Shown here piece by piece: positions 25,901 to 28,726 of a stretch of DNA of 64,000 bases. The stretch is from Polytrichum commune. Taxonomy: Eukaryota; Streptophyta; Polytrichopsida; Polytrichales; Polytrichaceae. The notes under the pieces are model-generated. The model was not told where the DNA came from and searched no databases. It worked only from the letters and a program-made list of their open reading frames with translations. Each line of letters begins with the position of its first letter. Within the stretch, counting starts at the first letter, position 1. The stretch lies in the NCBI GenBank assembly GCA_950295325.1, contig OX485807.1, positions 3,102,501-3,166,500 of the forward strand, read 5' to 3'. Both the position numbers and the translations under genes were made by a program.

Positions 25901-28726
25901 TGAAACATTGCTGACTGTTGTGATGATTTAAGACATGAACAATTATCCAATACATCACATATCTAATCGACAGATCATGTTCATTAATACCGGTTCTTAA
26001 CATGTGATAACGTTATTGGCAACTGATTCTGAGAAACTCCTGAGTGGGTTGAGGATTGAACATGTTTGTTTAATGCATGTGCAGCTCATTTCAACCTCAA
26101 GTATGCCCAGTTTATTGACCGAGGAAATTGGAGACAGAATAAATGTAAAAACAAGTGGTGATGGAAGTTGGGAAATACAATTTGACAAGACCAACGGACT
26201 TATTGATTTCTGGAAGGTTAGATAGACACTCCTCGCATGCACTTTGCAAAATTACTCCAGCGTTTGGCAAAAGCTGTAGAATTTTTCCAGTCTTTCAACT
26301 TTAATTTCAGGGAAGGTTTGTCCAAACCGCCAGTTTAAGAAGTTTTGTCCACTCTATGATGAAGACAGTGTTGCCTGAATCTGATTCTAATCTACCCCTA
26401 AGCTTACGAGAGTCCCAATCTGTATTTGATTTACACTCCCATTTTTAGAATTATGTCAAAAGTGGCCCTATTTAAAATGAACTCGTTCTTCGACAAGTGA
26501 ACAGTTCAATGTCATTGAAGATTTGGGCTTAAATACACAGCTTGGGTGCCCTTGGATGCAAACACAAACTCAGTATTTTATCATCAATTTCACAGATGTG
26601 TATTTTTGAATTTCTCCTTGACATTTGAAACTAAGTTCCAAATCCATAAATATGACGAACATGATTTTAAGAGTTGATGTAAAGGACTTGTAGAATTTGT
26701 GTATATAGGTCATACATTGAGCCTGTTGGTCTTTTAAGGGTTAACCTCATTCTTGTGTATCTGTACTGTGTAATTTGAGCCTCTGACTTCCAAGTGTGAT
26801 TTTTTTTGTGGATGATATATTTTAGGTGGACGATATGCATGTTCTGTCTGATGGTCCTCTTCCTTGCTTTTGGAGAGCACCAACTGATAATGACAAAGGA
26901 GGTTCATTACTAAGCTACAACTCACAGTGGAAAGCATGTGGATTGGACACACTCATGCTTACAGGATGTGAGGGTTTCACACTGAAGAAAATCTCTGACC
27001 AAGTTATTTCTCTAAGTTGTGTTATCTTTATCGAACCCAAAGGCGAAGAACCGCCTCCACCACAAGTGTCCGAAAGTCAGGCTGGTAATATTGATACTCG
27101 CACAGTGGAAGCAATAAAGAGCCAGGTGACAGAAATGCAAGCGGAGAGGGCTGAGAGGGAGATTCTTACAGGTTTTAAAATCAAAGTTGAGTACAAAGTG
27201 TTTGGCAACGGCAACTTGATTGCCACCTATGATGTTCAACCGTCCCTAAAAGTGTCCACCTTGCCAAGAGTAGGGGTGCAGTTCAATATTGACAAAGATT
27301 GCAATCAAGTTGAATGGTATGGGCGCGGGCCGTTTGAGTGTTACCCTGACCGAAAGTCGGCTGCGTGGGTTGGAATTTACAACAAAGATGTGGAGGATTT
27401 GCATGTGCCATATATTGTGCCGGGTGAGTGTGGCAGTCGTGCTGATGTTCGATGGGTGGCCTTTAGAAGCAAGGCTAAAAGAGGAGTGGGTTTACTTGCA
27501 ATGCCCGCTGACGAAAGTAACCCACCAATGCAGATGAGCGCGAGCTACTACACCAGTCATGAACTCGATCGGGCCACGCATAATGAGGAACTTGAGGGAG
27601 GACAATCTATTGAGGTGCGTGCTTTCTTATCTTAACAAATCCTTGGCATGTCCTTAGCATTCTTAAGCATGTGTACAGACATTCTCTTTCTATTCTAGCT
27701 GCAACAATAGATTTCCAATAATCAAGGTCCTTGATTACATGCATGAATTCCAAGCATAGTCAAGTTTGCAACCTGAATGAAAGAAAGAAAATTCCGATGT
27801 TACCAGTGGTGTGAACTATGGTGTTGCTTCATTTTCGAGTTGGTCTAAGTCCATATGTAATCCCGAAACATGCATTACGAAAATTAGAGGCCCCTGGAAG
27901 CTGGCACGTATCTCCCCAAAGGGCAGGCCCCTAGGTTCCCACATGGTCAGCTGAAAATATCCGGTTCACCCAAATACCCCCACTATGATTGGGTGGACGA
28001 TAGGTGGTAGTGTGCGTTGGAAATCAAATGCTAGGAAGGTCATCCATCTGAGTACTATTCCAGCTTTAGACAGCTTAACTTCAGAGTTTTCATTGGCTCC
28101 GGGTAAAGGCCTTGGATTTGAAGTTGCAACCTCTCCTTAGTCAAAACTCACATTAGTTACATATCTTCGGACACAAAGCCTTCTCCCATCTACCAGGATT
28201 CAACTTAAAGACCTTGCCAAAAAGAATCTCACCAAGTCTATACTCTCCAAGATGCTTATCTTGGGAAAACACCCACTCACCACTTAAGAATGCTATGCAT
28301 GTTAGTGAATCACATTCATGTAAAATGCTTGGATTATTTGCACTCTGTTTTAATGCAGTAAGGTACTCATTCAACCATATTCATTTGCTTCTCCATGCTC
28401 CCTTGTAACACAATTCTGTAGTCCTTGTAGCTTCACAAGCTATAGGATCTACACCTACTTTCAAAAGAGGCAGTATGGTTTTATTATGTCTCTCTTGTTG
28501 CAAAGTATAACAATGTCATATGAATATGACCCCATGTATTTTATATGTCTCCGTGCAGGTGCACTTGGATCACAAGCACATGGGTATTGGAGGTGATGAC
28601 AGTTGGACACCTTGTGTGCACCCCCAGTATTTTGTGCCACCGCAGCCTTACCAGTTCTCAATCAGATTTTGCCCTCTTAATCCACAAAGCTCTGCAACGA
28701 AACTTGCGGAAACAAAGCTTGAATAA
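16965..28726 (+). CDS. GH2 beta-galactosidase-like protein (plant LacZ type) with predicted organelle leader
   Basis: Eighteen phase-consistent exons: 16965-17211, 17447-17584, 18729-18968, 19551-19697, 19898-19976, 20191-20365, 20819-20884, 21106-21348, 21563-21769, 22388-22700, 23433-23592, 23713-23821, 23976-24111, 24263-24318, 24650-24949, 26085-26216, 26826-27614, 28559-28726; about 1234 aa. The protein follows the LacZ plan: jelly-roll sugar-binding domain ([20 protein letters not shown]), beta-sandwich, TIM barrel with [15 protein letters not shown] and [18 protein letters not shown], acid/base Glu in [13 protein letters not shown] (about residue 607), nucleophile Glu in [13 protein letters not shown] (about 672, its codon split by an intron), then the beta-galactosidase small-chain domain. 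It is expected to hydrolyse terminal beta-galactosides. Exon 1 is Ser/Arg-rich and acid-poor at its start and joins exon 2 in frame, giving an N-terminal extension that looks like a plastid or mitochondrial targeting peptide. If exon 1 is wrong, translation would start inside exon 2. Introns carry several mobile elements. Confidence 0.93.
17671..17875 (+). repeat. Repeat family R, copy a (GH2 intron 2)
   Basis: The segment matches copies at 27652-27765 plus 28124-28455 (same orientation) and 22965-23410 (inverted). Shared blocks are ATTCTTAAGCATGTGTAAGG, TACATGCATGAAT.CCA, GAGCATAGTCAA, TCTTCGGACACAAA.CCTTC and CATCTACCA.GATTCAA. It is truncated after the last block compared with the other copies. 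Confidence 0.75.
19016..19360. mobile_element. MITE, PIF/Harbinger-like, TTA target duplication (GH2 intron 3)
   Basis: The ends are inverted repeats. The left end starts GAGCAACTCCTATGGTCACT and the right end, read on the other strand, starts GAGCGTCTCCAACAATCACT; both continue through TRTAAA and TTCTCTC. Identity over about 40 bases is roughly 75-80 percent. TTA flanks both sides (19013-19015 and 19361-19363). Length 345 bp, no coding capacity. A TTA/TAA duplication and this size are typical of Tourist-type MITEs. Confidence 0.8.
21975..22300. mobile_element. Inverted-repeat element in GH2 intron 9
   Basis: The left side reads GGGGTTTACATCAGGGTCCA and the right side, on the other strand, GGGTTTACACTAGAGTTCAA, followed on both by a further related stretch (CAAGAAAC / CAAAGGAAC). 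Halves of the same element occur around 53080-53240 (inverted) and 53390-53530. Target duplication was not resolved. It is probably a diverged MITE. Confidence 0.5.
22965..23410 (-). repeat. Repeat family R, copy b (GH2 intron 10), inverted, with a coding relic
   Basis: This is the longest copy of family R and lies inverted relative to the others. Its plus strand reads, with stops, like a protein: [63 protein letters not shown]. Copy c on its minus strand reads [17 protein letters not shown] and [20 protein letters not shown]. The protein family was not recognised. Confidence 0.7.
25055..25433 (+). mobile_element. 5S-rRNA-derived SINE, copy 1 (GH2 intron 15)
   Basis: The 5' part (about 25060-25132) resembles the inner part of plant 5S rRNA: CTTTAACCTGGATCTCATG, GGAACTCTGAGG, then GGAATAGTACTCGGATGGG and TGACCATCCTAGCAC. 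About 17 bases including the AGTTAAGC of box A are deleted here. The body (CTATGGTCCACCCAATCA, GTGGGGG, TGTGGGAATGTAGGGGCTTG) and the 3' part (GATGAAGCAACACCATATTT, T-rich tail) match copy 2 at 27775-28123. A target duplication was not found for this copy. Confidence 0.75.
27652..27765 (+). repeat. Repeat family R, copy c, left piece (GH2 intron 17)
   Basis: This is the first piece of a family R copy interrupted by a 5S-derived SINE. Shared blocks ATTCTTAAGCATGTGTA, GACATTCTCTTTCTATTCT and TACATGCATGAATTCCAAGC align with copies a and b. The copy resumes at 28124. Confidence 0.75.
27775..28123 (-). mobile_element. 5S-rRNA-derived SINE, copy 2, nested in repeat R (GH2 intron 17)
   Basis: Read on the minus strand, the first 95 bases resemble plant 5S rRNA from about position 15 onward: CTTTACCCGGAGCCAATG, AACTCTGAAGTTAAGC (box A), GGAATAGTACTCAGATGG, ATGACCTTCCTAGCA. 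An unrelated body and a T-rich end (AATTTTCTTTCTTTC) follow. It is flanked by a perfect 9-bp direct repeat, TTGCAACCT, at 27766-27774 and 28124-28132. Comparison with uninterrupted copies a and b of repeat R shows the element sits exactly between the two pieces. Length 349 bp. Confidence 0.85.
28124..28455 (+). repeat. Repeat family R, copy c, right piece (GH2 intron 17)
   Basis: It continues copy c after the SINE, with TATCTTCGGACACAAAGCC, TCTCCCATCTACCAGGATTC, AAGACCTTGCCAAAAAGAAT and ACCACTTAAGAATGCTATGC shared with inverted copy b. It ends near AGCTATAGGATCTA. The minus strand keeps an open frame (28153-28374) with the coding relic described for copy b. Confidence 0.75.

Follow-up and report, generated by a model that had tools for sequence, protein, structure and literature searches.

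A probable SINE3-type element with a 5S rRNA-derived head, and its family, in the moss Polytrichum commune

What kind of mobile element carries a sequence resembling 5S ribosomal RNA (rRNA) in the genome of the moss Polytrichum commune? The question was raised by a stretch of 64,000 nucleotides (assembly GCA_950295325.1, contig OX485807.1, positions 3,102,501 to 3,166,500 of the forward strand; hereafter the window), in which an initial annotation, made from the letters alone, had placed a 5S-derived short interspersed element (SINE) with a 9-bp target duplication at 27766-28132. As set out below, the element is very probably an old copy of a SINE of the SINE3 type, i.e., one with a 5S head. 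Plain coordinates refer to the window.

The element occupies 27775-28123 on the minus strand (349 bp) and is bounded by a perfect 9-bp repeat, TTGCAACCT on the plus strand, at 27766-27774 (3′ side of the element) and 28124-28132 (5′ side), as annotated. Its minus-strand sequence starts with CTTCAAATCC, and the plant 5S motifs AACTCTGAAGTTAAGC and GGAATAGTACTCAGATGG named in the initial annotation are both present within it. In local alignment with a plant 5S sequence, the copy scored 65 (best of 500 shuffles, 35), the alignment spanning about 70 bases at its front. Its head is a diverged 5S derivative; the Rfam 5S model gave no match above threshold anywhere in the 64-kb window. The head was delimited at 28010-28123 (minus strand) from the copy compared with 5S and the family consensus compared with the genome's own 5S. 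Within it, GAAGTTAAGC (28073-28082, minus strand) and AGTACTCAGATGGATGACC (28038-28056, minus strand) lie in boxes A and C, respectively, of the 5S internal promoter. The head is followed by a body without 5S likeness (27820-28009, minus strand; read in the copy and tested in the consensus) and by a 3′ segment with a CTTT tail (ATAGTTCACACCACTGGTAACATCGGAATTTTCTTTCTTTCATTC; 27775-27819, minus strand), which resembles the end of a long interspersed element (LINE) when the consensus is compared with LINE ends. The copy seems to lack approximately the first 6 bases of the family consensus and approximately 50 bp of the body. Its 5S likeness begins near base 15 because of these apparently missing first bases together with divergence; the start at about position 15 given in the initial annotation is thus right for this copy and wrong for the family, the consensus of which starts at 5S base 1.

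The assembly from which the window derives (408 Mb, seven large contigs) was searched with the element, and 40 of 1968 candidates were scored; they lay on all seven large contigs. Exact matches to a 23-base head pattern numbered 58. A 26-base pattern of the 3′ part matched 349 places when up to 2 mismatches were allowed, and a 28-base pattern of the tail matched 187 when up to 1 was; the reversed patterns matched 0 places each. The window element is a member of a dispersed family, and the lack of other genomic copies, which the initial annotation had named as a weakness its family claim might have, is not what the genome holds. The copies retrieved came in three sets: 40 chosen for their similarity (set 1), 20 of the 58 with the head pattern (set 2), and 20 drawn from the 52 that, among those listed, match the tail pattern exactly (set 3). 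The 26-base pattern was present in 11/40, 3/20, and 5/20 of these copies, respectively. Taken with the 349 places, these shares suggest about one to three thousand copies, a rough guess extrapolated from biased sets.

A consensus of 405 bp, beginning with GGGTGGCTTAAACCCAAGGCCTTAACCCGGATCCCATGGGAACTCCGAGGTTAAGC and ending with CTTTCTTTCTTT, was built from the alignments and set by judgement, with CpG places written as CG. Its first 120 bp or so form a 5S-like head that starts at 5S base 1; the body after the head is unrelated to 5S, and the tail is (CTTT)n. Sets 1 and 2 and a second copy in the window were combined into a set of 61 copies, 50 of which were full by a length criterion, the chimeric structure being uniform in many copies. 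The alignment began at consensus base 1 or 2 in 43/61 copies, the window copy being counted among them only by running into its own duplication. Since the mean divergence of the copies from the consensus was 13.1% (10.5% outside CpG), the family is considered old. The second window copy (25049-25431, plus strand), is perhaps the one called copy 1 in the initial annotation; a 55-bp fragment of a third is also present (63222-63276, plus strand; consensus bases 126-186). A clear duplication was not found at the flanks of the second copy.

The genome's own 5S was obtained by an Rfam 5S search, in which at least 29 places were over the cut-off (47 of 15430 candidates scored); 25 of the 29, in 22 loci, were read. 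Against this 5S, the consensus head scored 95 (best of 2000 shuffles, 37) and the consensus body 17, in line with the annotated division into a 5S-derived front and a non-5S remainder. Identical columns numbered 85/118 over the head, with 41/52 in the promoter stretch (5S positions 47-98), 31/45 before it, and 13/21 after it; the presumed promoter, with boxes A, IE, and C, is therefore the best-kept part. From these alignments, the head is of plant-type 5S. The own 5S was not clearly closer to it (85/118) than an angiosperm 5S (83/116).

Other 5S-like sequences were met in the same searches. Dispersed, nearly intact 5S copies occur in the genome (loci L041-L056), several with unrelated flanks, and TGATGCGGTC stands at the 5S start in 11 of these 16 loci. 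Two 5S copies (L045 and L046) are preceded by GTCG and the other copies are not; mosses are reported to carry GTCG before 5S (PMC6739443). Two tandem 5S-like units approximately 183 bp apart are found in a repeated locus (L059:380-760, L062, C4:54347748-54348128, C1:23658913-23659050), which had 17 matches, three of them covering nearly the whole query and one of 138 bp. These units may be the 5S-mimic exon of land-plant TFIIIA genes, doubled here.

The marks of retroposition were surveyed in the copies. Of the full copies, 50 in number, 18 had flank repeats scoring at least 8 (mismatches allowed), with 1.1 expected from mispaired flanks, and the observed mean score was reached in 0 of 5000 permutations. 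Perfect flank repeats of 7-14 bp were present in 17 (2.8 expected from mispaired flanks), their length being variable and not fixed at 4-6 bp. In set 3, the copies of which carry the tail by selection, 10 were full, 8 were 5′-truncated at varying points, and 2 were unclear; the copy in L086, which is truncated at consensus base 56, is clearly flanked on both sides by a 9-bp duplication (GCAGGATTA). In set 2, selected by the head, the 3′ end was reached by 16 copies in one alignment and by the copy in L072 beyond a gap. Duplications, 5′ truncations, and kept 3′ ends fit target-primed reverse transcription, the established mechanism of LINEs. As side observations, SINE pieces adjoin head to tail in tandem in L067 and L080, and a copy in L098 is split by an insert with apparently inverted ends, which by eye resembles a miniature inverted-repeat transposable element.

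A route of mobilization can be proposed from these features. RNA polymerase III (Pol III) would transcribe the SINE from the internal 5S promoter in its head, part of the transcripts possibly ending early at a TTTT run in the body. A CTTTT-tailed LINE of the same genome would then supply the enzymes that recognize the 3′ end of the SINE RNA, and a new copy would be made at a nicked target site by target-primed reverse transcription.

The candidate partner was sought among the genome's reverse transcriptase (RT) matches (150 of 2620 candidates scored), which were grouped by eye according to RT span; three LINE groups were sampled. In the group with an RT span of about 804 bp, endonuclease matches precede the RT in a copy that was read through, and such matches lie nearby in several other members. 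The 3′ ends of this group were located by comparing four copies and then 19 more from 40 scored places. The LINE consensus ends with AATTCACGCCGGTATTTAGATACGGGCGTAATTTTT and then runs of C and T, and has a (CTTTT)n tail; the SINE consensus ends with AATTCACGCCGGTGGCAACATCGGAGTCGTCTTTCTTTCTTT. The two share a 13-base motif at an equal offset before the tail: ATTCACGCCGGT is present in 13/23 LINE 3′ ends and the full 13 bases of the SINE consensus, AATTCACGCCGGT, in 6/23. The score of the SINE-LINE comparison was reached by 2/5000 dinucleotide shuffles, 0/315 internal SINE pieces, and 0/106 internal LINE pieces. In a scan of 16 LINE loci made before the true 3′ ends of the 804-bp group were reached, nothing exceeded shuffled tails; the likeness appeared only once those ends were reached. 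Poly(A) ends were found in 5/5 copies of the 684-bp group. In the 735/759-bp group, 4/6 copies ended in CTTCACAGTA or close variants of it and had no T-rich tail, the ends of the other 2 not being located. Both groups were rejected as partners, as their ends had no likeness to the SINE beyond background. From the shared 3′ sequence, the CTTTT-tailed LINE is rather probably the mobilizer of the SINE.

This LINE (L129:392-4300, L122:3-2291; contig C2, approximately 36080400-36087600) has endonuclease and RVT_1 matches, and its N-terminal part has the 2A-like motif GDIEINPGP. Behind the RT there is a PCIF1_WW match (E 2.4e-6, below the cut-off of Pfam). When compared with solved structures, the RT region scored higher with R2 (100 bits) than with LINE-1 (57 bits). 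Another LINE family without poly(A) ends with CTCGGTGAGGTCTTCACAGTA or near variants, and 17 exact places with this end were found. At 6 of the 17 (C2:13144955, also in L149; C1:32668271; C1:73336265; C2:13229457; C5:10516008, also in L154; and C6:2682864), the LINE end is succeeded by the 3′ portion of a tRNA gene, tRNA-Gly-like in five cases and tRNA-Trp-like in one. This plant LINE family may thus target tRNA genes. The LINEs of this genome are unlike the usual plant ones; together with the seven large contigs and the GTCG before two 5S copies, this suggests a moss.

Could the element belong to another class? Cassandra, a terminal-repeat retrotransposon in miniature (TRIM), is the one plant mobile element with a 5S sequence found described in the open literature, and in 5 of 28 loci (L067, L077, L079, L080, and L082) further copies in the same orientation lie near the first, so solo long terminal repeats (LTRs) from a TRIM like Cassandra or Ajax, in which the LTR carries the 5S promoter, had to be weighed. 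The consensus, however, ends in GGGTGG..CTTT and not in TG..CA, starts at 5S base 1, and has flank repeats of variable length; 5′-truncated copies exist, and the spacing of the further copies varies, some being directly adjacent. The initial annotation had named two units around an internal region as the pattern that would make these Cassandra-type LTRs. In 28 loci, with approximately 600-1500 bp of flank per side, neither a pair of copies with a constant spacer nor an LTR pair was found, and because of this the element is not regarded as Cassandra; on all these grounds the solo-LTR explanation was rejected and is very unlikely, and the annotated choice of a SINE over an LTR element was upheld. 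Processed 5S pseudogenes that share their flanks by chance only would agree with the dispersed, nearly intact 5S copies in the genome. They would not have the roughly 280 bp of body and tail, unlike 5S, that the 50 full copies share in the same register; this explanation was rejected for the shared body and is almost certainly wrong. Spread by recombination instead of retroposition could account for the adjoining pieces in L067 and L080, but copies on all seven large contigs and flank repeats beyond chance make it extremely unlikely. A different matter is whether the same SINE is moved by another LINE, for instance of the RTE type or of an unsampled family. With three groups sampled, and with the shared segment limited to 13 bases and the type of tail, this is a tentative yet serious alternative; the ends of the other two sampled groups and the position of the motif in the CTTTT-tailed LINE, at the SINE's own offset from the tail, speak against it.

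Several observations weigh against a SINE3-type element moved by the CTTTT-tailed LINE, and they concern both the element and its partner. The TTTT run in the consensus body (GATATTTTCAACC) could stop Pol III early, transcription itself being predicted from the promoter in the head. A clear duplication is absent from roughly half of the full copies, or more; among the 8 truncated copies, one is clear by eye in L086 only and possible in L087. The 3′ end is missing in 3/20 copies of set 2, 5/20 of the same set begin more than 15 bases into the consensus, and a recognizable CTTT/TTC tail is present in 42/53 copies that reach the end. Simple retroposition gives no firm explanation of the further copies nearby in 5/28 loci. 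The copy sets were chosen by similarity or exact motif and so favor well-kept copies. The likeness of SINE and LINE is short and surfaced after several LINE groups had been looked at: a 45-base SINE piece scores 26 with the LINE end, chance matches elsewhere in the fetched DNA (95,782 bases) reach 25, and two loci from a different LINE group give 24 and 25. The sole higher background score (56, in L042) came from a SINE 3′ fragment. Finally, the 3′ end of the LINE folds strongly (z -5.4), that of the SINE not (z -1.0).

How does the family compare with known systems? SINE3 elements are described in vertebrates and some insects (PMC7245038) and in Aspergillus (AfuSINE3; PMC5063351), so the initial annotation was correct in assigning them to animals and too narrow in leaving out fungi. 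Zebrafish SINE3, Helicoverpa HaSE3, Tribolium SINE3-1_TC, and Aspergillus AfuSINE3 (PMC7245038, PMC5063351, PMC10886601) are examples. The moss family resembles them in its 5S head with internal promoter boxes, unrelated body, and flank duplications, and perhaps in a LINE-like 3′ end, and differs in its plant-type 5S head, (CTTT)n tail, and plant host. Known SINE3 families are assigned to CR1, I, or RTE LINEs (PMC7245038), whereas here the likely partner is an endonuclease-RT LINE that is unclassified and has a very long open frame. Cassandra, an LTR-type TRIM of land plants bearing 5S (PMC10853983, PMC10886601), is alike in its plant host, 5S promoter, and short non-coding retroelement nature (PMC10853983); unlike the moss family, around which no LTR pair was found in 28 loci, it has two LTRs, a primer binding site, and a polypurine tract. 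The Ajax and Helenus TRIMs likewise have a small-RNA-derived promoter in a non-autonomous element but are LTR elements with 4-5 bp duplications (PMC10886601). A paper on plant SINE annotation mentions 5S heads in general terms only (PMC8825457).

The window also has open reading frames with GRAS (42814-45117, minus strand), beta-galactosidase small chain (26826-27635, plus strand), and DUF7869 (884-2368, plus strand) domains; the GRAS-domain gene, like the plant-type 5S, points to a green plant. The SINEs of plants with a tRNA-derived head, including those that share the Angio domain at the 3′ end, are of similar size and retroposon structure and share the plant host; they differ in that their head comes from tRNA, not 5S.

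No plant 5S-SINE was found described in the open literature, subscription papers and Repbase being outside the search, and on this ground the family is taken as new. As far as found, it is new for plants and of a kind of element already known, which agrees with the undescribed family suggested in the initial annotation. One published account of how Cassandra arose is that a SINE3 inserted into an LTR (PMC10886601). We give an even chance to the broader proposal that this is the first plant lineage of 5S-headed SINEs, independently born from bryophyte-type 5S and moved by an endonuclease-RT LINE without poly(A), with a very long open frame and the 2A-like GDIEINPGP. Elements of this kind have been put forward as the donor of Cassandra's 5S promoter. 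A plant SINE3 family would be proof that SINEs with a 5S head have arisen in plants as well. Because no plant SINE3 was found described before, such a family makes the SINE3-into-LTR idea of Cassandra's origin testable. If the partner LINE is the true one, the pair would allow the study of RNA recognition by a plant LINE without poly(A).

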